From Synaphobranchus kaupii (Eukaryota > Chordata > Actinopteri > Anguilliformes > Synaphobranchidae): 64,000 nucleotides of DNA. The DNA is taken from the NCBI GenBank assembly GCA_029718625.1, contig CM056376.1, forward strand, positions 117,215,307-117,279,306, written 5' to 3'. Under the pieces are notes generated by a model. That model did not search any database and was not told the DNA's origin. It saw only the letters and a program-made list of their open reading frames with translations. Every line of letters starts with the position of its first letter. Positions within the stretch are counted from its first letter, which is position 1. A program made the translations under genes and the position numbers. Positions 34,640 through 56,522 of the stretch are shown piece by piece.

Positions 34640-37336
34640 ATTTATACTCTCACATACACCATTATACTCTCTCATACACACCATCATACTCTCTCACACA
34701 CACCATTATACTCTCTCATACACAACATCATACTCTCTCACACACACCATTATACTCTCTCACACACACCATTATACTCTCTCACACACACCATTATACT
34801 CTCCCACATACACCATCATACTCTCCCACATACACCATTATACTCTCTCACACACACCATTATACTCTCCCACATACACCATCATACTCTCCCACACACA
34901 CCATCATACTCTCTCACACACACCATTATACTCTCTCATACACACCATTATACTCTCCCACATACACCATCATACCCTCCCACATACACCATCATACTCT
35001 CTCACACACCATTATACTCTCCCACATACACCATTATACTCTCCCAGAAACACCATTATACTCTCCCACATACACCATCATACTCTCCCACACACACCAT
35101 CATACTCTCTCACACACCATTATACTCTCCCACATACACCATTATACTCTCCCAGAAACACCATTATACTCTCCCACATACACCATTATACTCTCCCACA
35201 TACACCATCATACTCTCCCACACACACCATCATACTTTCTCACACACCATTATACTCTCTCACACACACCATCATACTCTCTCACACACCATTATACTCT
35301 CTCATACACACCATTATACTCTCCCACATACACCATCATACTCTCCCACACACACCATCATACTCTCTCACACACCATTATACTCTCCCACATACACCAT
35401 TATACTCTCCCAGAAACACCATTATACTCTCCCACACACACCATTATACTCTCTCACACACACCATTATACTCTCTCACACACACCATTATACTCTCCCA
35501 CATACACCATCATACTCTCCCACACACACCATCATACTCTCTCACACACACCATTATACTCTCCCACATACACCATTATACTCTCCCACATACACCATCA
35601 TACTCTCCCACATACACCATCATACTTTCTCACACACCATTATACTCTCTCACACACACCATCATACTCTCTCACACACCATTATACTCTCTCATACACA
35701 CCATTATACTCTCCCACACACACCATCATACTCTCTCACACACCATTATACTCTCCCACATACACCATTATACTCTCCCAGAAACACCATTATACTCTCC
35801 CACACACACCATCATACTCTCTCACACACACCATTATACTCTCTCATACACAACATCATACTCTCTCACACACCATTATACTCTCCCACACACAACATCA
35901 TACTCTCTCACACACTATTATACTCTCTCACATACACCATTATACTCTCTCACACACCATTATACTCTCTCACACACAACATCATACTCTCTCACACACT
36001 ATTATACTCTCTCACATACACCATTATACTCTCTCACACACCATTATACTCTCTCATACACTATTATACTCTCTCATACACAACATCATACTCTCTCACA
36101 CACCATTATACTCTCTCACACACAACATCATACTCTCTCACACACTATTATACTCTCTCACACACAACATCATACTCTCTCACACACTATTATACTCTCT
36201 CATACACAACATCATACTCTCTCACACACCATTATACTCTCTCACACACAACATCATACTCTCTCACACACTATTATACTCTCTCACATACACCATTATA
36301 CTCTCTCACACACACCATTATACTCTCTCATACACCATTATACTCTCTCATACACAACATCATACTCTCTCACACACCATTATACTCTCTCACACACCAT
36401 TATACTCTCTCATACACAACATTATACTCTCTCACACACCATTATACTCTCTCACACACCATTATACTCTCTCATACACAACATTATACTCTCTCACACA
36501 CACCATTATACTCTCCCACACACACCATTATACTCTCTCATACACAACATTATACTCTCTCACACACACCATTATACTCTCTCACACACCATTATACTCT
36601 CTCATACACAACATCATACTCTGTCACACACCATTATACTCTCCCACACACAACATCATACTCTCCCACACACCATTATACTCTCTCACACACACCATCA
36701 TACTCTCTCACACACCATTATACTCTCTCACACACCATTATACTCTCTCATACACAACATCATACTCTCCCACACACAACATCATACTCACTCACACACC
36801 ATTATACTCTCTCATACACACCATTATACTCTCTCATACACACCATTATACTCTCTCATACACACCATTATACTCTCTCACACACAACATCATACTCTCT
36901 CACACACCATTATACTCTCTCACATACACCATTATACTCTCTCATACACACCATCATACTCTCTCACACACACCATTATACTCTCCCACACACACCATCA
37001 TACTCTCCCACACACAACATCATACTCTCTCACACACACCATTATACTCTCCCACATACACCATCATACTCTCCCACACACAACATCATACTCTCTCATA
37101 CACACCATTATACTCTCTCATACACACCATTATACTCTCTCACACACAACATCATACTCTCTCACACACCATTATACTCTCTCTCACACACCATTATACT
37201 CTCTCATACACACCATCATACTCTCTCATACACAACATCATACTCTCTCACACACAACATCATACTCTCTCACACACCATTATACTCTCTCACACACACC
37301 ATTATACTCTCTCATACACAACATCATACTCTGCTA
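34640..37336 (+). repeat. 22-bp minisatellite array, left arm
   Basis: Tandem units of ACCATTATACTCTCTCACAC type, 22 bp with frequent 20-bp variants that lack one CA. About 125 copies lie in this orientation. Variant positions include ATTATA/ATCATA, TCTCTC/TCTCCC and CACACA/CATACA. Long open frames on several phases arise because the unit lacks stop codons in any phase. They are not genes. Confidence 0.97.
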
Positions 37337-37430
37337 CATAATGGTGTATGTGAGAGACTATGATGGTGCATGTGAGGGTATAATGGCGTGTGAGAGGGTA
37401 TAATGGATGGTGTTTGTGAGAAAGTATAAT

Positions 37431-37472
<42 letters not shown>

Positions 37473-40400
37473 TATAATGGTGTATGTGGAAGAGTATAAT
37501 GGTGTATGTGAGAGTATGATGATGTATGTGGGAGAGTATGATGGTGTGTGTGGGAGAGTATGATGGTGTATCTGGGAGAGTATGATGGTGTATGTGGGAG
37601 AATATGATGGTGTGTGTGTGAGAGTATGATGGTGTATGTGGGAGAGTATGATGGTGTATCTGGGAGAGTATGATGGTGTATGTGGGAGAGTATAATGGTG
37701 TGTGTGGGAGAGTATAATGGTGTTTCTGGGAGAGTATGATGGTGTATGTGGGAGAGTATAATGGTGTGTGTGGGAGAGTATAATGGTGTATCTGGGAGAG
37801 TATGATGGTGTGTGTGGGAGAGTATAATGGTGTATGTGGGAGAGTATGATGGTGTATGTGGGAGAGTATAATGGTGTATGTGGGAGAGTATGATGGTGTA
37901 TCTGGGAGAATATAATGGTGTATGTGGGAGAGTATGATGGTGTATGTGGGAGAGTATAATGGTGTATCTCGGAGAGTATGATGGTGTATGTCGGAGAGTA
38001 TGATGGTGTATGTGGGAGAGTATAATGGTGTATGTGGGAGAGTATGATGGTGTATCTGGGAGAGTATAATGGTGTACGTGGGAGAGTATGATGGTGTATG
38101 TGGGAGAGTATAATGGTGTATCTGGGAGAGTATGATGGTGTATGTGGGAGAGTATAATGGTGTGTGTGGGAGAGTATAATGGTGTGTGTGGGAGAGTATA
38201 ATGGTGTATGTGGGAGAGTATGATGGTGTGTGTGGGAGAGTATAATGGTGTATGTGGGAGAGTATGATGGTGTATGTGGGAGAGTATAATGGTGTATGTG
38301 GGAGAGTATGATGGTGTATGTGGGAGAGTATGATGGTGTGTGTGGGAGAGTATAATGGTGTATGTGGGAGAGTATAATGGTGTGTGTGGGAGAGTATGAT
38401 GGTGTGTGTGGGAGAGTATGATGGTGTATGTGGGAGAGTATAATGGTGTGTGTGGGAGAGTATAATGGTGTATGTGAGAGAGTATAATGGTGTGTGTGAG
38501 AGAGTATAATGGTGTGTGTGGGAGAGTATGATAGTGTATGTGGGAGAGTATGATGGTGTATGTGAGAGAGTATAATGGTGTGTGTGGGAGAGTATAATGG
38601 TGTATGTGGGAGAGTATGATGGTGTATGTGAGAGAGTATAATGGTGTGTGTGGGAGAGTATAATGGTGTATGTGGGAGAGTATAATGGTGTGTGTGGGAG
38701 AGTATAATGGTGTATGTGGGAGAGTATGATGGTGTATGTGGGAGAGTATAATGGTGTGTGTGGGAGAGTATGATGGTGTATGTGAGAGATTATAATGGTG
38801 TATGTGGGAGAGTATGATGGTGTATGTGGGAGAGTATAATGGTGTATGTGGGAGAGTATGATGGTGTATGTGGGAGAGTATAATGGTGTATGTGGGAGAG
38901 TATGATGGTGTATGTGAGAGATTATAATGGTGTATGTGGGAGAGTATGATGGTGTATGTGGGAGAGTATAATGGTGTGTGTGGGAGAGTATAATGGTGTA
39001 TGTGGGAGAGTATGATGGTGTATCTGGGAGAGTATAATGGTGTATGTGGGAGAGTATGATGGTGTATGTGGGAGAGTATGATGGTGTATGTGGGAGAATA
39101 TAATGGTGTATGTGGGAGAGTATGATGGTGTATGTGGGAGAGTATGATGGTGTGTGTGAGAGTATGATGGTGTATGTGGGAGAGTATGATGGTGTATGTG
39201 GGAGAGTATAATGGTGTGTGTGGGAGAATATAATGGTGTATGTGGGAGAGTATGATGGTGTATGTGGGAGAGTATGATGGTGTATGTGGGAGAGTATGAT
39301 GGTGTATGTGGGAGAGTATGATGGTGTGTGTGGGAGAGTATAATGGTGTGTGTGGGAGAGTATAATGGTGTATGTGAGAGAGTATGATGGTGTATCTGGG
39401 AGAGTATTATGGTGTATGTGGGAGAGTATAATGGTGTATGTGGGAGAGTATAATGGTGTGTGTGGGAGAGTATGATGGTGTATGTGGGAGAGTATAATGG
39501 TGTATCTGGGAGAGTATAATGGTGTATGTGGGAGAGTATAATGGTGTATGTGAGAGAGCATACTGGTGTATGTGGGAGAGTATGATCGTGTATGTGGGAG
39601 AGTATAATGGTGTATGTGGGAGAATATAATGGTGTGTGTGGGAGAGTATAATGGTGTATGTGGGAGAGTATAATGGTGTATGTGGGAGAGTATAATGGTG
39701 TATGTGGGAGAGTATGATGGTGTATGTGGGAGAGTATGATGGTGTATGTGGGAGAGTATGATGGTGTATGTGGGAGAGTATGATGGTGTATGTGGGAGAG
39801 TATGATGGTGTATGTGGGCGAGTATAATGGTGTATGTGGGAGAGTATGATGGTGTGTGTGGGAGAGTATAATGGTGTATGTGGGAGAGTATAATGGTGTG
39901 TGTGAAAGAGTATGATGGTGTATGTGGGAGAGTATGAAGGTGTATGTGCGAGAGTATGATGGTGTGTGTGGGAGAGTATGATGGTGTATGTGGGAGAGCA
40001 TGATGGTGTATGTGGGAGAGTATGATGGTGTATGTGGGAGAATATGATGGTGTATGTGAAAGAGTATGATGGTGTATGTGGGAGAGTATAATGGTGTATG
40101 TGGGAGAATATGATGGTGTATCTGGGAGAGTATAATGGTGTATGTGGGAGAGTATGATGGTGTATGTGAGAGATTATAATGGTGTATGTGGGAGAGTATG
40201 TTGTGTGTGGTGGGAGAGTATCATGGTGTATCTGGGAGAGTATAATGGTGTATGTGGGAGAGTATGATGGTGTATGTGGGAGAATATAATGGTGTATGTG
40301 GGAGAGTATGATGGTGTATGTGGGAGAGTATAATGGTGTATGTGGGAGAGTATGATGGTGTATCTGGGAGAGTATAATGGTGTATGTGGGAGAGTATGAT

Positions 40401-43400
40401 GGTGTATCTGGGAGAGTATAATGGTGTATGTGGGAGAGTATAATGGTGTGTGTGGGAGAGTATGATGGTGTGTGTGGGAGAGTATGATGGTGTATGTGGG
40501 AGAGTATAATGGTGTGTGTGGGAGAGTATAATGGTGTATGTGGGAGAGTATAATGGTGTGTGTGGGAGAGTATGATGGTGTGTGTGGGAGAGTATGATGG
40601 TGTATGTGGGAGAGTATAATGGTGTGTGTGGGAGAGTATAATGGTGTATGTGAGAGAGTATAATGGTGTGTGTGAGAGAGTATAATGGTGTGTGTGGGAG
40701 AGTATGATAGTGTATGTGGGAGAGTATGATGGTGTATGTGAGAGAGTATAATGGTGTGTGTGGGAGAGTATAATGGTGTATGTGGGAGAGTATAATGGTG
40801 TGTGTGGGAGAGTATAATGGTGTATGTGGGAGAGTATAATGGTGTGTGTGGGAGAGTATAATGGTGTATGTGGGAGAGTATGATGGTGTATGTGGGAGAG
40901 TATAATGGTGTGTGTGGGAGAGTATGATGGTGTATGTGAGAGATTATAATGGTGTATGTGGGAGAGTATGATGGTGTATGTGGGAGAGTATAATGGTGTA
41001 TGTGGGAGAGTATGATGGTGTATGTGGGAGAGTATAATGGTGTATGTGGGAGAGTATGATGGTGTATGTGAGAGATTATAATGGTGTATGTGGGAGAGTA
41101 TGATGGTGTATGTGGGAGAGTATAATGGTGTGTGTGGGAGAGTATAATGGTGTATGTGGGAGAGTATGATGGTGTATCTGGGAGAGTATAATGGTGTATG
41201 TGGGAGAGTATGATGGTGTATGTGGGAGAGTATGATGGTGTATGTGGGAGAATATAATGGTGTATGTGGGAGAGTATGATGGTGTATGTGGGAGAGTATG
41301 ATGGTGTGTGTGAGAGTATGATGGTGTATGTGGGAGAGTATAATGGTGTGTGTGGGAGAATATAATGGTGTATGTGGGAGAGTATGATGGTGTATGTGGG
41401 AGAGTATGATGGTGTATGTGGGAGAGTATGATGGTGTATGTGGGAGAGTATGATGGTGTGTGTGGGAGAGTATAATGGTGTATGTGAGAGAGTATGATGG
41501 TGTATCTGGGAGAGTATTATGGTGTATGTGGGAGAGCATAATGGTGTATGTGGGAGAGTATAATGGTGTGTGTGGGAGAGTATGATGGTGTATGTGGGAG
41601 AGTATAATGGTGTATCTGGGAGAGTATGATGGTGTATGTGGGAGAGTATAATGGTGTATGTGGGAGAGTATAATGGTGTGTGTGTGGGAGAGTATAATGG
41701 TGTATGTGGGAGAGTATAATGGTGTATGTGAGAGAGCATACTGGTGTATGTGGGAGAGTATGATCGTGTATGTGGGAGAGTATAATGGTGTATGTGGGAG
41801 AATATAATGGTGTGTGTGGGAGAGTATAATGGTGTATGTGGGAGAGTATAATGGTGTATGTGGGAGAGTATGATGGTGTATGTGGGAGAGTATAATGGTG
41901 TATGTGGGAGAGTATGATGGTGTATGTGGGAGAGTATGATGGTGTATGTGGGAGAGTATGATGGTGTATGTGGGAGAGTATGATGGTGTATGTGGGAGAG
42001 TATGATGGTGTATGTGGGCGAGTATAATGGTGTATGTGGGAGAGTATGATGGTGTGTGTGGGAGAGTATAATGGTGTATGTGGGAGAGTATAATGGTGTG
42101 TGTGAAAGAGTATGATGGTGTATGTGGGAGAGTATGATGGTGTATGTGCGAGAGTATGATGGTGTGTGTGGGAGAGTATGATGGTGTATGTGGGAGAATA
42201 TGATGGTGTATGTGAAAGAGTATGATGGTGTATGTGGGAGAGTATAATGGTGTATGTGGGAGAGTATGATGGTGTATCTGGGAGAGTATAATGGTGTATG
42301 TGGGAGAGTATGATGGTGTATGTGAGAGATTATAATGGTGTATGTGGGAGAGTATGTTGTGTGTGGTGGGAGAGTATCATGGTGTATCTGGGAGAGTATA
42401 ATGGTGTATGTGGGAGAGTATGATGGTGTATGTGGGAGAATATAATGGTGTATGTGGGAGAGTATGATGGTGTATGTGGGAGAGTATAATGGTGTGTGTG
42501 GGAGAGTATAATGGTGTATGTGGGAGAGTATGATTGTGTATGTGGGAGAGTATGATTGTGTATGTGCGAGAGTATGATGGTGTATGTGGGAGAGTATGAT
42601 GGTGTATGTGGGAGAGTATAATGGTGTATGTGGGAGAGTATGATGGTGTATGTGGGAGAGTATGATGGTGTATGTGGGAGAGTATAATGGTGTGTGTGGG
42701 AGAGTATGATGGTGTGTGTGGGAGAGTATAATGGTGTATGTGGGAGAGTATGATGGTGTATCTGGGAGAGTATAATGGTGTATGTGGGAGAGTATGATGG
42801 TGTATGTGCGAGAGTATGATGGTGTGTGTGGGAGAGTATGATGGTGTGTGTGGGAGAGTATAATGGTGTATGTGGGAGAGTATGATTGTGTATGTGGGAG
42901 AGTATGATTGTGTATGTGCGAGAGTATGATGGTGTATGTGGGAGAGTATGATGTGTCGTATGTAGGGAGAGTATAATGGTGTATGTGGGAGAGTATGATG
43001 GTGTATGTGGGAGAGTATGATGGTGTATGTGGGGAGAGTATAATGGTGTTGTGTGGGGAGAGTATGATGGTGTGTGTGGGAGAGTATAATGGTGTATGTG
43101 GGAGAGTATGATTGTGTAATGTGGGAGAGTATGATGGTGTATGTGGGAGAGTATGATGGTTGTATGTGGGGAGAGTATAATGGTGTATGTGGGAGAGTAT
43201 GATGGTGTATGTGCGAGAGTATGATGGTGTATGTGTGAGAGTATAATGGTGTATGTGTGAGAGTATGATGGTGTATGTGGGAGAGTATGATGGTGTATGT
43301 GGGAGAATATAATGGTGTATCTGGGAGAGTATGATGGTGTTGTGTGGGAGAGTATAATGGTGTATGTGGGAGAGTATGATGGTGTATGTGGGAGATATAA

Positions 43401-46400
43401 TGGTGTATGTGGGAGAGTATGATGGTGTATGTGGGAGAGTATTAATGGTGTATGTGGGAGAGTATGATGGTGTATCTGGGAGAGTATAATGGTGTATGTG
43501 GGAGAGTATGATGGTGTATCTGGGAGAGTATAATGGTGTATGTGGGAGAGTATGATGGTGTGTGTGGGAGAGTATAATGGTGTATGTGGGAGAGTATAAT
43601 GGTGTGTGTGGGAGAGTATAATGGTGTATGTGGGAGAGTATGATGGTGTATGTGGGAGAGTATAATGGTGTGTGTGGGAGAGTATGATGGTGTATGTGAG
43701 AGATTATAATGGTGTATGTGGGAGAGTATGATGGTGTATGTGGGAGAGTATAATGGTGTATGTGGGAGAGTATGATGGTGTATGTGGGAGAGTATAATGG
43801 TGTATGTGGGAGAGTATGATGGTGTATGTGAGAGATTATAATGGTGTATGTGGGAGAGTATGATGGTGTATGTGGGAGAGTATAATGGTGTGTGTGGGAG
43901 AGTATAATGGTGTATGTGGGAGAGTATGATGGTGTATCTGGGAGAGTATAATGGTGTATGTGGGAGAGTATGATGGTGTATGTGGGAGAGTATGATGGTG
44001 TATGTGGGAGAATATAATGGTGTATGTGGGAGAGTATGATGGTGTATGTGGGAGAGTATGATGGTGTGTGTGAGAGTATGATGGTGTATGTGGGAGAGTA
44101 TAATGGTGTGTGTGGGAGAATATAATGGTGTATGTGGGAGAGTATGATGGTGTATGTGGGAGAGTATGATGGTGTATGTGGGAGAGTATGATGGTGTATG
44201 TGGGAGAGTATGATGGTGTGTGTGGGAGAGTATAATGGTGTATGTGAGAGAGTATGATGGTGTATCTGGGAGAGTATTATGGTGTATGTGGGAGAGCATA
44301 ATGGTGTATGTGGGAGAGTATAATGGTGTGTGTGGGAGAGTATGATGGTGTATGTGGGAGAGTATAATGGTGTATCTGGGAGAGTATGATGGTGTATGTG
44401 GGAGAGTATAATGGTGTATGTGGGAGAGTATAATGGTGTGTGTGTGGGAGAGTATAATGGTGTATGTGGGAGAGTATAATGGTGTATGTGAGAGAGCATA
44501 CTGGTGTATGTGGGAGAGTATGATCGTGTATGTGGGAGAGTATAATGGTGTATGTGGGAGAATATAATGGTGTGTGTGGGAGAGTATAATGGTGTATGTG
44601 GGAGAGTATAATGGTGTATGTGGGAGAGTATGATGGTGTATGTGGGGAGAGTATAATGGTGTATGTGGGAGAGTATGATGGTGTATGTGGGAGAGTATGA
44701 TGGTGTATGTGGGAGAGTATGATGGTGTATGTGGGAGAGTATGATGGTGTATGTGGGAGAGTATGATGGTGTATGTGGGCGAGTATAATGGTGTATGTGG
44801 GAGAGTATGATGGTGTGTGTGGGAGAGTATAATGGTGTATGTGGGAGAGTATAATGGTGTGTGTGAAAGAGTATGATGGTGTATGTGGGAGAGTATGATG
44901 GTGTATGTGCGAGAGTATGATGGTGTGTGTGGGAGAGTATGATGGTGTATGTGGGAGAATATGATGGTGTATGTGAAAGAGTATGATGGTGTATGTGGGA
45001 GAGTATAATGGTGTATGTGGGAGAGTATGATGGTGTATCTGGGAGAGTATAATGGTGTATGTGGGAGAGTATGATGGTGTATGTGAGAGATTATAATGGT
45101 GTATGTGGGAGAGTATGTTGTGTGTGGTGGGAGAGTATCATGGTGTATCTGGGAGAGTATAATGGTGTATGTGGGAGAGTATGATGGTGTATGTGGGAGA
45201 ATATAATGGTGTATGTGGGAGAGTATGATGGTGTATGTGGGAGAGTATAATGGTGTGTGTGGGAGAGTATAATGGTGTATGTGGGAGAGTATGATTGTGT
45301 ATGTGGGAGAGTATGATTGTGTATGTGCGAGAGTATGATGGTGTATGTGGGAGAGTATGATGGTGTATGTGGGAGAGTATAATGGTGTATGTGGGAGAGT
45401 ATGATGGTGTATGTGGGAGAGTATGATGGTGTATGTGGGAGAGTATAATGGTGTGTGTGGGAGAGTATGATGGTGTGTGTGGGAGAGTATAATGGTGTAT
45501 GTGGGAGAGTATGATGGTGTATCTGGGAGAGTATAATGGTGTATGTGGGAGAGTATGATGGTGTATGTGCGAGAGTATGATGGTGTGTGTGGGAGAGTAT
45601 GATGGTGTGTGTGGGAGAGTATAATGGTGTATGTGGGAGAGTATGATTGTGTATGTGGGAGAGTATGATTGTGTATGTGCGAGAGTATGATGGTGTATGT
45701 GGGAGAGTATGATGGTGTATGTGGGAGAGTATAATGGTGTATGTGGGAGAGTATGATGGTGTATGTGGGAGAGTATGATGGTGTATGTGGGAGAGTATAA
45801 TGGTGTGTGTGGGAGAGTATGATGGTGTGTGTGGGAGAGTATAATGGTGTATGTGGGAGAGTATGATTGTGTATGTGGGAGAGTATGATGGTGTATGTGG
45901 GAGAGTATGATGGTGTATGTGGGAGAGTATAATGGTGTATGTGGGAGAGTATGATGGTGTATGTGCGAGAGTATGATGGTGTATGTGTGAGAGTATAATG
46001 GTGTATGTGTGAGAGTATGATGGTGTATGTGGGAGAGTATGATGGTGTATGTGGGAGAATATAATGGTGTATCTGGGAGAGTATGATGGTGTGTGTGGGA
46101 GAGTATAATGGTGTATGTGGGAGAGTATGATGGTGTATGTGGGAGAATATAATGGTGTATGTGGGAGAGTATGATGGTGTATGTGGGAGAGTATAATGGT
46201 GTATGTGGGAGAGTATGATGGTGTATCTGGGAGAGTATAATGGTGTATGTGGGAGAGTATGATGGTGTATCTGGGAGAGTATAATGGTGTATGTGGGAGA
46301 GTATGATGGTGTATGTGCGAGAGTATGATGGTGTGTGTGGGAGAGTATGATGGTGTATGTGGGAGAGTATGATGGTGTGTGTGGGAGAGTATAATGGTGT

Positions 46401-47340
46401 ATGTGGGAGAGTATGATTGTGTATGTGGGAGAGTATGATTGTGTATGTGCGAGAGTATGATGGTGTATGTGGGAGAGTATGATGGTGTATGTGGGAGAGT
46501 ATAATGGTGTATGTGGGAGAGTATGATGGTGTATGTGGGAGAGTATGATGGTGTATGTGGGAGAGTATAATGGTGTGTGTGGGAGAGTATGATGGTGTGT
46601 GTGGGAGAGTATAATGGTGTATGTGGGAGAGTATGATTGTGTATGTGGGAGAGTATGATGGTGTATGTGGGAGAGTATAATGGTGTATGTGGGAGAGTAT
46701 GATGGTGTATGTGCGAGAGTATGATGGTGTATGTGGGAGAGTATAATGGTGTATGTGTGAGAGTATGATGGTGTATGTGGGAGAGTATGATGGTGTATGT
46801 GGGAGAATATAATGGTGTATCTGGGAGAGTATGATGGTGTGTGTGGGAGAGTATAATGGTGTATGTGGGAGAGTATGATGGTGTATGTGGGAGGGTATGA
46901 TGGTGTATGTGGGAGAGTATAATGTTGTGTGTGGGAGAGTATGATGGTGTATGTGCGAGAGTATGATGGTGTGTGTGGGAGAGTATGATGGTGTATGTGG
47001 GAGAGTATAATGGTGTGTGTGGGAGAGTATAATGGTGTGTGTGGGAGAGTATGATGGTGTGTGTGGGAGAGTATAATGGTGTATGTGGGAGAGTATGATG
47101 GTGTATGTGGGAGAGTATGATGGTGTATGTGGGAGAGTATGATGGTGTATGTGGGAGAGTATGATGGTGTATGTGCGAGAGTATGATGGTGTATGTGGGA
47201 GAGTATGATGGTGTGTGTGGGAGAGTATAATGGTGTATGTGGGAGAGTATGATGGTGTATCTGGGAGAATATAATGGTATATGTGGGAGAGTATGATTGT
47301 GTATGTGAAAGAGTATAATGGTGTATGTGGGAAAGTATGA
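37337..47340 (-). repeat. 22-bp minisatellite array, right arm in inverted orientation
   Basis: The same unit continues on the opposite strand (GAGAGTATAATGGTGTATGT) for about 10 kb, or about 450 copies. A (GT)n run lies at about 37435-37466 just inside the junction. Rare variant units recur together at long spacing, showing higher-order duplication. The apparent proteins rich in SYSPTYTIILSHIHHHTLP are translations of the repeat and have no family. Confidence 0.97.
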
Positions 47341-47359
47341 TTTAAACGGCCTCTCATAC

Positions 47360-48688: not shown

Positions 48689-49681
48689 ATGGCAGCGCTT
48701 CGCTGTCGAAAAGACCCTTGTGGTTTTATATGTCTTGTTTTAACGTATTTCAGCGTTTTCTATGCCGACTACGTGGTAATTCAGTATGTCCTAATCCCAG
48801 CCTATTCCGGGAGGTGAGTAGCGTTTAAATCCTAAACAGGTTTCAGTGCGTGTGTGGCATGTGTGTCATGATGTGTGTGCAGCGTAGCGGTGGTATGCTA
48901 CGTTAGTAACGATAGCTAGCTATGCTAGCTTGATAATGTCCGATTTCGTGTATTATTTATTAAAGACATTAACCAAACTACTTGACATATTTATGCGATA
49001 CATTTCAGTATCTAGCGCGTTACTATTTAAAAATCATATTGATATTGGCTACCGACAGACATCTACCTAGCGTTTCTGGGAGCTGTGGTGTCCGGTTATA
49101 TGCTGTAATGTTTATGACGTAAACATGAGGGGACATAGGGGCTTGTCTTCTTTTGCAGCATTACAATACAGTAAGCAAACATTTCCACTCACTCCATCTG
49201 GACCTCTGGCTTTCGATATGAATATCTTCAGACAGATGTTCTGCTTTTTGAAGCTAATTGCCTGATGTAATTGACTATCTATTTAACAAGGGGGAACCAA
49301 AAGAACTCTGGGGAACTCCAATCACCTGGATTTGCTAATTAGCATTATTCTTCAGCCACGAGGTAGAACTAATTACCAAATTCAGCTGGCTGAGTTCATG
49401 GGTGGAAGAAACGCATGGAAGGACTTTTACTTTATGACCCCTGGACTTTACACCTCTGCAAATGGTGCCAACCTCTTGATCAGTGCACTTTAGTTGCCTA
49501 TGGCAGCTGTAAATGTGAATCTCTGCATATGGTCAATACAAAGGAAGCATACTTTCCCCCCTCTCCCCCTCCAGTGCCTGGTGCTCAATGCACGGTGCCA
49601 TCTTCAACATCCTCCTAATCCTGCTCCTAGCCTGTCACTCAAAGGCAGTCTTCTCAGACCCAGGTGAGTCTCACACACACA

Positions 49682-49716
<35 letters not shown>

Positions 49717-51068
49717 CCCTGCACCTTTACTGCATACACACAGACACACACACCTGCACCTTTACTCCATACACATTCACACAAACACACACACACTAAC
49801 ACCCCTGCACCTTTACTGCATACACATACAAACACACACTAACACCCTTGCACCTTTACTGCATACACATACAAACACATACACACACCCCTGCACCTTT
49901 ACTGCATACACATACAAACACACACTAACACCCCTGCACCTTTACTGCATACACATACAAACACATACACACATCCCTGCACCTTTACTGCATACACATA
50001 CAAACACACACTAACACCCCTGCACCTTTACTGCATACACATACAAACACACACTAACACCCCTGCACCTTTACTGCATACACATACAAACACACACTAA
50101 CACCCCTGCACCTTTACTGCATACACATACAAACACACACTAACATCCCTGCACCTTTACTGCATACACATACAAACACATACACACATCCCTGCACCTT
50201 TACTGCATACACATACAAACACACACTAACACCCCTGCACCTTTACTGCATACACATACAAACACATACACACACCCCTGCACCTTTACTGCATACACAT
50301 ACAAACACATACACACACCCCTGCACCTTTACTGCATACACATACAAACACACACACACCCCTGCACCTTTACTGCATACACACAGACACACACTAACAC
50401 CCCTGCACCTTTACTGCATACACATACAAACACATACACACACCCCTGCACCTTTACTGCATACACATACAAACACACACACACCCCTGCACCTTTACTG
50501 CATACACACAGACACACACTAACACCCCTGCACCTTTACTGCATACACATACAAACACACACACACCCCTGCACCTTTACTGCATACACACAGACACACA
50601 CTAACACCCCTGCACCTTTACTGCATACACATATAAACACACACACCCCTGCTCCTTTACTCCACACACACACCCCTGCACCTTTTTGTTTTAAGCTGTG
50701 TGTAGTTGTTTGACTGAGATTTGTCACTGTGTAACTTGACATGTGCCTTTGGTTGTGTCTTTGTTATGTAGTGTTATAACCGGGATGTGCAGGAAAGTCT
50801 TTTGTTTAGTGTTATAGCAGGGTTGTGCAGTAAAGTGCCTTGTTGTGTTATAACAGGCTTGTGCAGCACAGTGCCTTATGTAGTGTTATAACAGGCTTGA
50901 GCAGCCCAGTGCCTTGTTGTTACATTACATTTACATTTTAGACATTTGGCAGACGCTCTTATCCAGAGCGACGTACATTAGTGCATTTTCCAACCTGAAA
51001 CAAGTGCTTTAAAAACAACCCTAAAAGGTAAATACGAATTCAAACACCGGGCGCAGTCAGTATGATTA

Positions 51069-51102
<34 letters not shown>

Positions 51103-54100
51103 TGGGGGGGGTGGGGGACCACACGATATCAATCATTGGCATGCACAACAGTAAGCCAATAAGTAACCTTACAAGTATTAAACTAGAAGCTTCAACCACT
51201 GAAACAAGGATTTATAGAACACAATCAAGGGAGGTCACAAGGAGGTAGGGAGGGGTGGAGAGAGGTGCAGCTTAAAGAGGTGAGTCTTCAATCTGCGCTT
51301 GAAGGCGGTCAGACTTTCTGTTGTTCTGACCTCCACGGGGAGCTCATTCCACCACCGTGGGGCCAGGACAGACAGACGTCGAGACCGGGTGCTAGTATGA
51401 AGTGGGGGGGGGTACCAGTCGTCCTGAGGAGGCTGAACGCAGGGATCTGGTAGGTGTGTAGGGTCTGATGAGCTTTTGGAGGTATGGAGGGGCTGATCCT
51501 CGGACTGCCTGGAAGGCGAGCACCAATGTTTTGAATTTGATGCGAGCCATCACAGGTAGCCAGTGGAGGTCAATGAGCAGGGGGGTGACATGGGAGTGTC
51601 GGGGGAGGTTGAAGACCAGGCGCGCTGCTGCGTTCTGGATAAGCTGAAGGGGTCTGATGGCTGATGCTGGCAGGCCAGCCAGGAGAGAGTTGCAGTAGTC
51701 TAGGCGGGACAGCACCATCGCTTGGACCAGGAGCTGGGTTGAGTGGGTGGTGAGGAAAGGGCGGATTCTCCTGATGTTGTACAGGAAGAACCTGCACGCC
51801 CGGGTTACCACTGCGATGTTCTCGGAGAGGGACAGTCTGTTGTCCATCACCACTCCGAGGTTCCTGGCACAGGGCGTTGGGGTCAGTGGAGTGTCCCCTA
51901 AGGAAATGGAGAGATTGAGAGGGGGAGAGGTTAGAGCAGGAATGTAAATGAGCTCAGTCTTGCCTGGATTGAGCTTCAGATGGTGGTTGTCCATCCAGCT
52001 CTGGATGTCTCTCAGGCAAGCGGAGATGCGGGCTGAAGCCTGAGTGTCAGAGGGTGAGAAGGAGAGAAAGAGTTGAGTATCGTCAGCATAGCAGTGGTAG
52101 TGTTATAACAGGCTTGTGCAGTACAGAGTCTGGTGCAGTGTTATAACAGGTTTGAGCAGCCCAGTGCCTTGTTGTGTAGTGTTATAACAGGCTTGTGCAG
52201 CACAGAGCCCTGTGTAGTGTTATAACAGGGTTGTGCAGTACAGTGCCTTGTTATGTAGTGTTATAACAGGCTTATGCAGCACAATGATTGCGTCGTGTTA
52301 TAACAGGGTGAGACTGTACTGTTGATTGCCTTGCCAGGTATGGTGCCACTCCCAGACACAGCCATCGACTTCTCCGACCTTCGGTCTCAGTCCTCTCGCA
52401 AAAATGAAAGGGTAAGGTCCCTTCTTTCCTCTCCTCTCCTCTCACTTGAGAAACAAACACACACATAGGCTGTATGGCTGTACACACGGAAGCCACACAT
52501 GGCTTAAATACAGTTTGAGTGCATTGTGGGAGTTGTAGTTTGATAAAGCTGTGTTTTCTTTCAGGGCTGTGAGGGCTGGACAGTGTGCAGCCGGTGTGAG
52601 ACGTATCGTCCCCCCCGTGCGCATCACTGTAGAGTCTGCCAGAGATGCATCCGACGCATGGATCACCACTGTCCCTGGTCAGTTTCACCCTAACGCATAA
52701 CCCCTAACTCGCATCCTAGCCCTTAACTCACACCCTAACTCACCTAACCCACATGTTAACCCCTAACTTATACCCTAACCCATTAGGGAAATGCAGAAAT
52801 GTGCTCCTGTAGGAGAGAGACAACGATTCACACATACCTCAGACGCTTGAAGATTTACAGCCATTTAGCCAACCATGTGATCCATAATGTACCAGTGTAA
52901 TTTACAGCTTAATCTAGCCCCCCCTTCCCAATTCCCACAGAGATCCATTCAAATGCAGAGAGGTTATAGTATTGCTTGTAAGAGTACCAGAAAATGTCTT
53001 TTTGATGTTGTTGGTGATTTACAGCTTAATCTAATCCCACCCCCCCAATTCCCATAGAGATCCATTCAAATGTTTGTAAGAGTACCTGAAAATAAGATAT
53101 AAAGAGTGTTTTGATGTTGTTGGGTCACAGACATCAGAAAGTCATGGCATGCAATGGATATGCAACAAAGTATTAGATATGATGACTTTATTTAAATTTA
53201 TGTTAATTACTTTTGCTACCTTGGTGAGCATTATCAATTCCGTCAAAAACATAAAAATGTATCCGTGATTCCAAACTTTTGAACGGTAGTGTATGTATAT
53301 GTCATTTGGCTTAATCAATACACATACACATAAACACACGCAAACATACAGCATACAGACACACTCGTGTGTGTGTGTGTGTGTATATGTGTAAGTGTGT
53401 CTGCATGCTGTATGTTGGGGTGTGTTTGTGTATGTGTGTAGAATAGGCGTGTGTGATTTTCTTGCACACTTTCTTTCGTAGGATAAATAATTGTGTGGGA
53501 GAGCTGAACCAGAAATACTTCATCCAGTTCCTCTTCTACACTGGTAAGGACAAGTAGTCAATGTATTGTTGTTACATTTGTTATCAGTATTGCAGAAGGA
53601 CAATCAGTATATTGATTATAATTATTGTTTGTGATGGTAGGGTTGGCCAGTCTGTACTCCATAGCACTGGTGGTATTATTGTTTGTGATGGTAGGGTTGG
53701 CCAGTCTGTACTCCATAGCACTGGTGGTATTATTGTTTGTGATGGTAGGGTTGGCCAGTCTGTACTCCATAGCACTGGTGGTATTATTGTTTGTGATGGT
53801 AGGGTTGGCCAGTCTGTACTCCATAGCACTGGTGGTATTATTGTTTGTGATGGTAGGGTTGGCCAGTCTGTACTCCATAGCACTGGTGGTATTATTGTTT
53901 GTGATGGTAGGGTTGGCCAGTCTGTACTCCATAGCACTGGTGGTATTATTGTTTGTGATGGTAGGGTTGGCCAGTCTGTACTCCATAGCACTGGTGGTAT
54001 TATTGTTTGTGATGGTAGGGTTGGCCAGTCTGTACTCCATAGCACTGGTGGTATTATTGTTTGTGATGGTAGGGTTGGCCAGTCTGTACTCCATAGCACT

Positions 54101-56522
54101 GGTGGTATCTGCATGGGTCTGGAGGATTCGCAACGAGAGAGACGGTGATGAAGCCCAAGACACAGATTCCAGCGAAGCTCCCAGCAAACACCTGATAGTG
54201 TGAGTTTATCACAGACACACACAGCTTATTGTTATGATTACGTCTGGCTGTTTCTCTTAGTGCTGTACTAGTACTGATATTTTCTCCCTGTCTCTTAGCG
54301 CACATTATATTATCCTTCTGGTGGAGTCGGTGCTTTTTGGAGTTTTTGTCATGGTCATCTTCTATGATCAGGTAACTCTTGTAATGGTGGATTAATGTTT
54401 AAGACCAGGGGTGTGTGGGATGTGATCGGGTTGTGTGGGATGTGATCGGGTTGTGTGGGATGTGATCGGGTTGTGTGGGATGTGATCGGGTTGTGTGGGA
54501 TGTGATCGGGTTGTGTGGGATGTGATCGGGATGTGATCGGGTTGTGTGGGATGTGATCGGGATGTGATCGGGTTGTGTGGGATGTGATCGGGTTGTGTGG
54601 GATGTGATCAGGTTGTGTGCAGTGGTTTAGGGATACAGATGTTGTAACTGCAGATGTGTAGAAGGCCAGAAGGAATGGTAACAATAGTACTGACATATTT
54701 TATGTATACACCATAATAATCCCCCCCCCCCCCCTTCCCCTCCACAGCTAATATCCATCGTCACGGATGAAACGCCGATTGAACAGATGAAAAACAGACT
54801 AATGAAGGACAGACCATCAAGCTCCCAGCACACACACACAACACACACCAAACACAACACACACACACACACGCAAACCCAAACTAGCACTCCTGAGAGA
54901 GGTCTTTGGAAGAGGTGAGTGCATGTTTGTGTGTATATGTGTACTATATGTGCATATCTCAACAGCCAATTTAACGAGGTTACTGTTGTCAGCTACTGTT
55001 GTCAGCTATATTATATTTAACTTTTACCTAGTAATTACCTGGTTAGCCTGCACAGGTACAACTATGGTTTCTCAAAAATTGCTCACTATCAAGATTTGTG
55101 TGTTGGTACCCTACTACCCCTTATGGAAAAAGAATATACTGCAGTATATTTAAAATATATCAAAATTATCTTCACAATATATTTAAAATATACTGCAGTA
55201 TATTACATTTCCATAAGGGTAGGGCTGAAACAATAATCGCCATATCGCCATACCCACCATGCGAGGCTTACCACTGGTTTGGTATGTTACCATCATAACC
55301 GCTCATATCGATATTGACAAGGACAAATTCACTAATATTGAAATAGTGAATATATTGACTACAGCATAAATATTGTTTCACAACAATCCTTCAATTAAAA
55401 TGTCAATGAAATTATGAACTCAATGAAAACATCTTCCTCCTTTAATGTCATTGATCCTCTGTGGTAACGTTATCTTTTCCACTGCATTGGTAATAGCACA
55501 GAGTCATAGGCTATGGTGGATGTTATGGTGCTGCATTAATGCATTATTTGCATATACAATGCCCTCCACTATTATTGGCACCCCCTGGTAAAAATGAGTA
55601 AAAAGGGTTATAAAAAATTCACCGTTTGGTGAATTAGCTTAATGTCACACTGAAAAAGTGAGAACATTTTAATTGAAGTAAATTCATTATGAGAAAAAAA
55701 AATCCCTCATCAAGAAATAATTATTTTTAACAAAACCACGTGTGCCACAATTATTGGCACCCCCTGCATTTATATATAGAATAAAGTAATAATTTTTAAT
55801 ATTTGGGCGCATATCCTTTGCATGCCATGACTTCCTGATATCTGTGACCCAACAACATCAAAAGACTCTTGATATCTTATTTTCTGGTACTCTTACAAGC
55901 GATATTATAACGTCTCTGCATTTAAATGGATCTCTATGGGTGGGACTAGATTTAGCTGTAAATTATGCTGGAACAGTATGGAATACATGGTTGGTAAAAT
56001 GGCTGTAAGTCATCAAGGGTCTGAGGTATCAAACAAGCCTCAAACCATCACTCTGCTGCCAGATATGCAGTAGATATAGATGGATCACTTTAAGGGTTGT
56101 TTCTCCTGACAAATTTTCCTATCGAACTCTATGGAAAAATAAGTCAGGAGAAGAAACCCTTCAGGTTATCCATCCATATCTACTGCATTTCTGGCAGCAG
56201 AGTGATGATTTAAGGCTTGTTTGATACGTCAGACCCTTGATGATTTAGAGCCATTTAGCCAACCATGTGTTCCATACTGTTTCAGTGTAATTTACAGCGA
56301 AATCTAGTCCCACTCAGGCACAGTGTTGTGTATGTAAATTACTGTATCTCTTATATCACTGTTCCAGGCACAGTGCTGTGTATGTAAATTACTAATGCAG
56401 TGTGTGTATCTCTCATATCACTGTTCCAGGCACAGTGCTGTGTTGGCTGTTCCCCTCTCCATTCCAGCCCTCCCTCGGCTGGGGGTATCACCTACTCTGC
56501 TCTGCCGGACTATGATGTGTAA
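48689..56522 (+). CDS. DHHC palmitoyltransferase (DNZ1 / ZDHHC3-7-like), nine exons
   Basis: DHHC enzymes attach palmitate to cysteines of membrane proteins, mostly in the Golgi. Exons: 48689-48813, 49575-49663, 52338-52411, 52565-52677, 53482-53543, 54073-54199, 54299-54371, 54748-54914 and about 56430-56522. The phases of exons 1-8 match. TM1 is in exon 1 ([19 protein letters not shown]) and TM2 in exon 2 ([15 protein letters not shown]), followed by a SDPG motif. The zinc-binding Cys-rich domain and catalytic DHHC are in exon 4 ([19 protein letters not shown]). TM3 spans exons 5-6 and TM4 is in exon 7; a TDETPIE motif is in exon 8. Closest recalled match is Drosophila DNZ1. Odd points: exon 6 has nine candidate acceptors, a CA-rich tract in exon 8 puts the conserved [11 protein letters not shown] block out of frame, and the exon 9 end reads SALPDYDV and stop (56520-56522) in a further frame. 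Either the C-terminus is diverged or this copy or assembly is frameshifted. Confidence 0.85.
49667..50690 (+). repeat. 43-bp minisatellite in intron 2 of the DHHC gene
   Basis: After a (CA)n run, about 22 copies of a unit containing CCTGCACCTTTACTGCATAC followed by CA-rich spacer, 43 bp in the regular part (for example 50062 to 50105). Length variants arise in the CA segment. Confidence 0.93.
50755..50925 (+). repeat. GTTATAACAGG minisatellite, left part
   Basis: Imperfect units of about 45-55 bp with TGTTATAACAGGCTTGTGCA and CAGTGCCTTGTTG. The array is split by the L2 insertion and resumes at 52099. Confidence 0.85.
50926..52098 (-). mobile_element. L2-type LINE fragment, 5'-truncated
   Basis: On the minus strand the fragment begins inside reverse transcriptase at the catalytic [12 protein letters not shown] box (near 52090). 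It continues through the thumb region: [47 protein letters not shown] and [15 protein letters not shown]. After a frame change near 51390 it reads [18 protein letters not shown]. The 3' UTR ends in AAATGTCTAAAATGTAAATG and TAATGTAA at 50926. It lies inside the GTTATAACAGG minisatellite of the DHHC gene's intron 2, antisense to the gene. It is truncated and inactive. Confidence 0.9.
51392..51994 (-). pseudogene. L2 reverse-transcriptase C-terminal coding fragment
   Basis: This is the longest open part of the LINE's pol gene, 200 codons covering the region after YADD up to [14 protein letters not shown]. Similarity is to L2/Maui-type fish LINEs. It has no start, endonuclease or complete polymerase. 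A similar but older remnant lies at 63380-63570. Confidence 0.88.
52099..52320 (+). repeat. GTTATAACAGG minisatellite, right part
   Basis: This resumes directly after the L2 fragment with TGTTATAACAGGCTTGTGCA units (about five) up to just before exon 3 of the DHHC gene. Confidence 0.85.
52836..53292. mobile_element. Foldback module arms with a third kind of Tc1-type end
   Basis: Two successive copies of the module arm (52836-53010 and 53015-53160) contain CAGAGATCCATTCAAATG. They run into a tail ending CCAAACTTTTGAACGGTAGTGTA, a common fish Tc1-family terminus. The whole lies in intron 4 of the DHHC gene. There is no coding capacity. Confidence 0.75.
53607..54108 (+). repeat. 54-bp minisatellite spanning a splice acceptor and exon start
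   Basis: Nine units of 54 bp. The exon-like part GGTTGGCCAGTCTGTACTCC starts at 53641, 53695, 53749, 53803, 53857, 53911, 53965, 54019 and 54073. Each unit contains TTATTGTTTGTGATGGTAG (intron end with AG), then the first 35 bases of exon 6. The copies look identical. The unit is a multiple of three with no stop on the gene's frame, encoding [18 protein letters not shown] per copy. Confidence 0.96.
54409..54620 (+). repeat. 20-bp minisatellite in intron 7 of the DHHC gene
   Basis: About nine to ten copies of TTGTGTGGGATGTGATCGGG, with two interspersed short GATGTGATCGG half-units. Confidence 0.93.
55110..55225. repeat. Small palindromic MITE in intron 8
   Basis: CTACTACCCCTTATGG near 55111 is inverse to CCATAAGGGTAGGG near 55211. 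The interior is largely self-complementary around TATACTGCAGTATATT. It is about 115 bp with no gene. Confidence 0.7.
55555..56317. mobile_element. Tc1-type end with full foldback module in intron 8
   Basis: The left end is ATGCCCTCCACTATTATTGG, a further Tc1-family terminus, with the internal ACAATTATTGGCACCCCCTG. The module starts at about 55798 (GGGCGCATATCCTTTGCATG). This is its most complete copy: outer arm, inner hairpin (GATGGATCACTTTAAGGGTT against its inverse around 56155-56175) and return arm up to 56310. It abuts the duplicated acceptor of exon 9. Confidence 0.8.
56318..56443 (+). repeat. Duplicated acceptor/exon-start units at exon 9
   Basis: GCACAGTGCTGTGT-type sequence starts at 56318, 56368 and 56430. 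Each start follows an AG, and the last two share the identical ATATCACTGTTCCAG tract. Only the third copy continues into the exon (GTTGGCTGTTCC). The first two run into TATGTAAATTACT, which holds an in-frame stop. Confidence 0.85.

Follow-up and report, generated by a model that had tools for sequence, protein, structure and literature searches.

Gene structure and identity

The window, i.e. the whole stretch of 64,000 nucleotides of the eel Synaphobranchus kaupii that was analysed (assembly GCA_029718625.1, named in PMC12492003; contig CM056376.1, positions 117,215,307 to 117,279,306 of the forward strand), harbors a gene whose exons 1-8, with GT-AG borders, join into one open DHHC frame, and whose intron 5/exon 6 boundary is covered by a tandem array (Table 1). 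The earlier identification of this gene as a DHHC palmitoyltransferase, made in a sequence-only reading of the same DNA, is borne out by a match to the Pfam DHHC domain PF01529 (E 6.3e-41, 140 bits against a cut-off of 28.7) and by the residues D141, H142, H143, and C144, which are invariant in 18/18 aligned proteins. The gene is that of a ZDHHC3-like DHHC palmitoyltransferase; among the matches listed, the annotations of relatives in many fishes read ZDHHC3, ZDHHC3-like or zf-DHHC domain-containing protein. The closest protein among these matches is SKAU_G00032630 of S. kaupii itself (100% identity over the query), and the tarpon and conger proteins are 90 and 92% identical, respectively, in alignments covering 92 and 90% of its length as the query.

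The protein part encoded by exon 5 ends in FLFYTG, and the exon 5/6 junction lies inside the third transmembrane helix (TM3), directly after YTG, as had been supposed before. The AlphaFold model of the S. kaupii protein P0001 (18 rows; mean pLDDT 52.7, pTM 0.41), a low-confidence model which served solely to locate TM3, shows a single helix spanning residues 156-191, with the junction residue G167 inside it and block means of 72-77 for residues 161-190.

Table 1. Features of the gene and of the array (positions within the window).
Feature	Position	Strand	Basis
Exon 1 (from the ATG chosen here; the deposited protein begins 12 residues earlier)	48689..48813	+	join
Exon 2	49575..49663	+	join
Exon 3	52338..52411	+	join
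Exon 4, DHHC zinc-binding domain	52565..52677	+	join and Pfam
Exon 5, DHHC-CRD end and TM3 start, donor CTG/GTAAGG	53482..53543	+	join
Native intron 5, 97 nt up to first acceptor	53544..53640	+	splice-site reading
54-bp minisatellite, 9.04 copies, 100% identical	53621..54108	+	TRF and script
Exon 6, first-acceptor form, 559 nt, eight extra 18-residue blocks	53641..54199	+	translated join, predicted
Exon 6, ninth-acceptor form, 127 nt, no extra block, as in deposited protein	54073..54199	+	join and deposited protein
Exon 7 (TM4)	54299..54371	+	join
Exon 8, with coding CA-rich microsatellite; conserved LREVFGRG beyond it in another frame	54748..54914	+	join and alignment
Exon 9 region; acceptor TTCCAG/GCACAGTGC tandemly doubled at a distance of 62 bp, giving exon starts at 56368 and 56430	56368..56513	+	repeat comparison

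As to the 3' end of the gene, the motif LREVFGRG, present in the tail of 17/17 aligned relatives, is absent from P0001 and in this assembly stands in a different frame, downstream of the CA-rich part of exon 8; the final PDYDV, exact in 11/17 relatives, is found in exon 9 in yet another frame. These two apparent frameshifts (54829-54914 and 56430-56513) would fit both residual indel errors and true decay; the lack of LREVFGRG in frame leaves the core DHHC domain unaffected. The acceptor of exon 9 is itself tandemly duplicated (56315-56443; 39 nt at 97%, 62 bp apart, the exon start occurring a third time at 56315), and its upstream copy, if used, would end the reading frame early.

The repeated splice boundary and its known relatives

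Tandem Repeats Finder (TRF) reported at the intron 5/exon 6 boundary an array with a period of 54 bp, 100% matches, no indels and a score of 976, and in a script comparison all nine full 54-bp copies collapsed to one single sequence. The sequence-only reading was thus right in describing nine identical units at this place, but the start it gave, 53607, is 14 bases too early, the true one being 53621. In each unit, the terminal 20 nt of intron 5 (ATTATTGTTTGTGATGGTAG) are followed by the initial 34 nt of exon 6, in agreement with the intron end and exon start recognized earlier. Nine consecutive exact 54-mers are evidently not a chance outcome of random sequence. The array locus was the sole match in the 1.5-Gb genome to a 221-base query including the last units, in a search that scored the best candidates alone and skipped very common words. 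The proposed recent expansion is supported by the zero differences between the copies, and zero changes in 488 bp set an age bound of about 0.6 to 6 million generations, which depends on assumed mutation rates and ignores homogenisation. The left and right ends of the array share 2 bp only, AT, as would be expected of a tandem duplication at microhomology.

In steps of 54 bp, nine AG dinucleotides precede positions 53641, 53695, 53749, 53803, 53857, 53911, 53965, 54019, and 54073. When exon 5 was joined to copies 9, 8, and 1 and translated, 0, 1, and 8 extra 18-residue blocks, respectively, were obtained in frame, and the join to copy 9 gave the normal TM3 of the family; the remaining six joins are in frame because the unit measures 54 nt. 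The absence of stops in the gene's frame, the frame-keeping nature of all nine acceptors, and the gain of 18 hydrophobic residues at TM3 with each extra unit, all noticed earlier, are therefore confirmed by the translated joins and the unit length. The hydropathy of the block (Kyte-Doolittle) is 2.52, vs. 1.35 and 1.61 for the native TM3 stretches. Of the three forward frames of the unit, two, among them that of the gene, are free of stops and the third is not. Shuffled 54-mers of equal base composition lacked stops in a given frame in 38% of cases, and a unit both in frame and open is expected by chance with a probability of about 0.13; this is weak evidence of selection and by itself no argument for it.

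Structures of this kind are described in a group of papers, which also supply the background on AG scanning (PMC3087553, PMC4526556, PMC5941971, PMC3902484, PMC1431707). The so-called mirages of amphioxus are minisatellite-like tandem repeats spanning intron/exon boundaries in Adh3, the globin genes BflGb6 and BflGb9, TnC and PGBD5; many of their copies, not all, keep the splice signal, and they are reported not to disturb regular splicing. The eel repeats likewise cross an intron/exon boundary, and an AG with identical context from -20 is kept in 9/9 copies. The likeness lies in the boundary-spanning tandem duplication, which in BflGb6 affects the acceptor side, as in the eel; the BflGb6 units, however, number 6 and 3 in two haplotypes, measure 150-160 bp and are 81-100% identical, whereas the eel array is found in a vertebrate and has nine 100% identical 54-bp in-frame units, each adding a hydrophobic block. 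As far as its sequence goes, the eel array appears to be a vertebrate case of the mirage-type structure known from amphioxus, which would extend mirages to an eel, and it is an unusual one in having nine identical, in-frame, membrane-span-sized units. A literature search restricted to open-licence papers returned no paper describing an acceptor minisatellite in fish.

Human genes offer two further parallels. The minisatellite of IFI6 (G1P3, 6-16) also repeats a splice signal, and its downstream units are used as donors, giving three mRNA species; but these are donors where the eel has acceptors, and their alternative use was demonstrated by transcripts. In FAM20C, another gene, a VNTR lies across an intron-exon junction, like the eel array, and is said to affect splicing. 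As for the model of intron gain in which tandem duplication of AG/GT segments brings new splice signals, tandem copies supply such signals in both cases, but the eel array is known as a repeated acceptor, not as a new intron. The eel array also illustrates how turnover of minisatellites can supply new coding sequence or new introns. Repeats in the introns of earthworm metallothionein and an exon duplication are described in PMC12783039.

Choice among the nine acceptors

The nine acceptors do not differ between position -20 and exon base 34, and any matrix reading that stretch will therefore score the nine sites alike. With our matrices, which for splice sites and branch points are frequency tables, not MaxEntScan, and had no fish-specific training, each of them scored 1.01, vs. 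2.78 to 8.1 for the other acceptors of the gene, which makes them its weakest. The view that the nine acceptors are equivalent holds for this stretch; however, it fails upstream, where a native branch-point region precedes copy 1 only. Copy 1 follows native intron 5, with the best branch-point-like motif TTGAT (score 3.85, its A 26 nt before exon 6), whereas copies 2-9 follow exon sequence, with the best such motif scoring 2.54 at 17 nt. According to the scanning rule, the first AG after the branch point is taken as the acceptor; since there is no AG between TTGAT and acceptor 1, this rule favours copy 1. The deposited SKAU_G00032630, on the other hand, has no extra block, as if produced from the ninth acceptor, and matches TM3 of 17 aligned relatives with no insertion. 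It also carries a frameshifted C-terminus and further residues missing from our exon-joined model; with such a tail it may be a purely computational product, and so RNA need not underlie its use of copy 9. The two rules of thumb hence point to different copies, scanning to copy 1 and the deposited protein to copy 9.

If the branch point before copy 1 does commit the join to the first AG, the main product would carry 144 extra hydrophobic residues and would probably be a failed protein, the allele being a loss-of-function or decaying one. TTGAT as the best branch-point candidate, the 97-nt native intron and the two apparent frameshifts at the coding 3' end would agree with such a state of the gene. 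We consider it unlikely, as exons 1-7 are open, the close identity to the tarpon and conger proteins is retained, and the deposited model lacks the block.

The sequence-only reading had proposed that the gene could make a ladder of proteins with zero to eight extra blocks at TM3, for which several of the nine acceptors would be used. Sites that do not differ between -20 and the end of the unit and score equally, a unit in frame and open, a block more hydrophobic than native TM3 and the several isoforms made from the IFI6 donor minisatellite would all suit such a ladder. The homologues give it no support: the strings LLFVMV, VVLLFV or two GLASLYS occurred in 0/125 homologues from the matches listed, the S. 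kaupii protein included. These homologues came from a first search (the best 120 of 1,127 matches) and from a second one with the eight-block form as the query (the best 120 of 397, with only the 7,999 candidates that had the most words in common with it scored), in which P0001 of S. kaupii was the best match among those listed. The span from NQKYF to TM4 was at most 54 residues in the 104 of the 120 first-search proteins that were measurable, and 48 in the one measurable protein of five further ones from the second search. The weakness of the acceptors, their unequal branch-point context and the regular splicing reported for the amphioxus mirages also speak against the ladder, which we hold to be rather unlikely. 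If each block did span the membrane, the C-terminal motifs would end up on the wrong face with odd numbers of blocks but on the right one with even numbers; that we have here a vertebrate acceptor ladder of variable copy number, adding membrane-span-sized blocks one by one to a transmembrane enzyme whose topology switches with parity, is very doubtful. On balance, copy 9 would have a modest lead as the dominant acceptor, with the ladder possible but unproven.

A donor-like ATG/GTAGGG in each unit, which scores 6.7, near the two weakest donors of the gene (6.49 and 6.6), was weighed as a possible origin of 50-nt micro-exons but dismissed, as 50 is not a multiple of three and the frame would be broken. 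Folding of the RNA from intron 5 to the end of exon 6 gave a long hairpin ladder; with z = -1.29 and 2/20 shuffles folding at least as well, we claim no special RNA structure. With acceptors that are alike from -20 up to exon base 34 and differ only by their order and by the upstream context of copy 1, the array is a natural experiment on the choice of 3' splice sites, in which the rules of the first site after the branch point, the site closest to the following donor, or some combination of the two are contrasted.

Origin of the array and its genomic setting

We favour, with a probability of about 0.5, a minisatellite expansion across the splice boundary, with most transcripts still joined at one dominant acceptor. 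The sequence and identity of the units, their frame and the gene were read directly; the origin and the mode of splicing we infer as follows. A 54-bp segment straddling the intron 5/exon 6 junction would have been tandemly duplicated recently and would then have grown to nine identical copies by slippage or unequal exchange. Most transcripts would be joined at one dominant acceptor, the ninth likelier than the first, and would yield the ancestral protein, the other copies being minor or cryptic sites. The gene would tolerate the array because the surplus copies would then be intron; if read, they would add in-frame hydrophobic blocks to TM3.

Near-identical arrays (period at least 20, at least 4 copies, at least 98% matches) numbered 3 in 194 kb of non-N sequence, or about 15 per Mb, in a small, non-random sample of 20 stretches of 10 kb taken at round coordinates from contigs 1-6 (5,643 bases N). 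Tandem-repeat rows of TRF, listed by hand, make up 24% of the window; for the gene span the figure is 28% (23.5% without the 54-mer array). Given the minisatellite-dense genome sample and the duplicated acceptor of exon 9, a chance strike on a splice boundary is plausible, and no special function is needed. With uniform placement and no selection, the chance for one or more of eight acceptors to lie in an array comes to 0.88, a post hoc figure from hand-listed rows that is a rough guide and not evidence.

The same sample bears on the notion of an assembly artefact, in which one or a few true copies would have been multiplied or homogenised in the course of assembly or polishing. Indel-type discrepancies nearby suggest an imperfect consensus, and a misassembled mirage is reported in the globin paper; but long reads, if used, would easily exceed 488 bp, the flanks are clean, and other near-identical arrays occur in the sample, so that we regard an artefact as very unlikely.

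Besides the array under discussion, introns 2 and 7 contain arrays (49701-50646 and 54408-54619) that start 38 and 37 nt after the donors of exons 2 and 7, respectively. Just upstream of the gene, a 22-bp minisatellite of about 12.7 kb occupies 34647-47341 as two adjacent arrays, with consensus units that appear to be each other's reverse complements. The segment 61100-62730, with similar ends in opposite orientation, resembles what we take to be a Tc1/mariner-like transposon.
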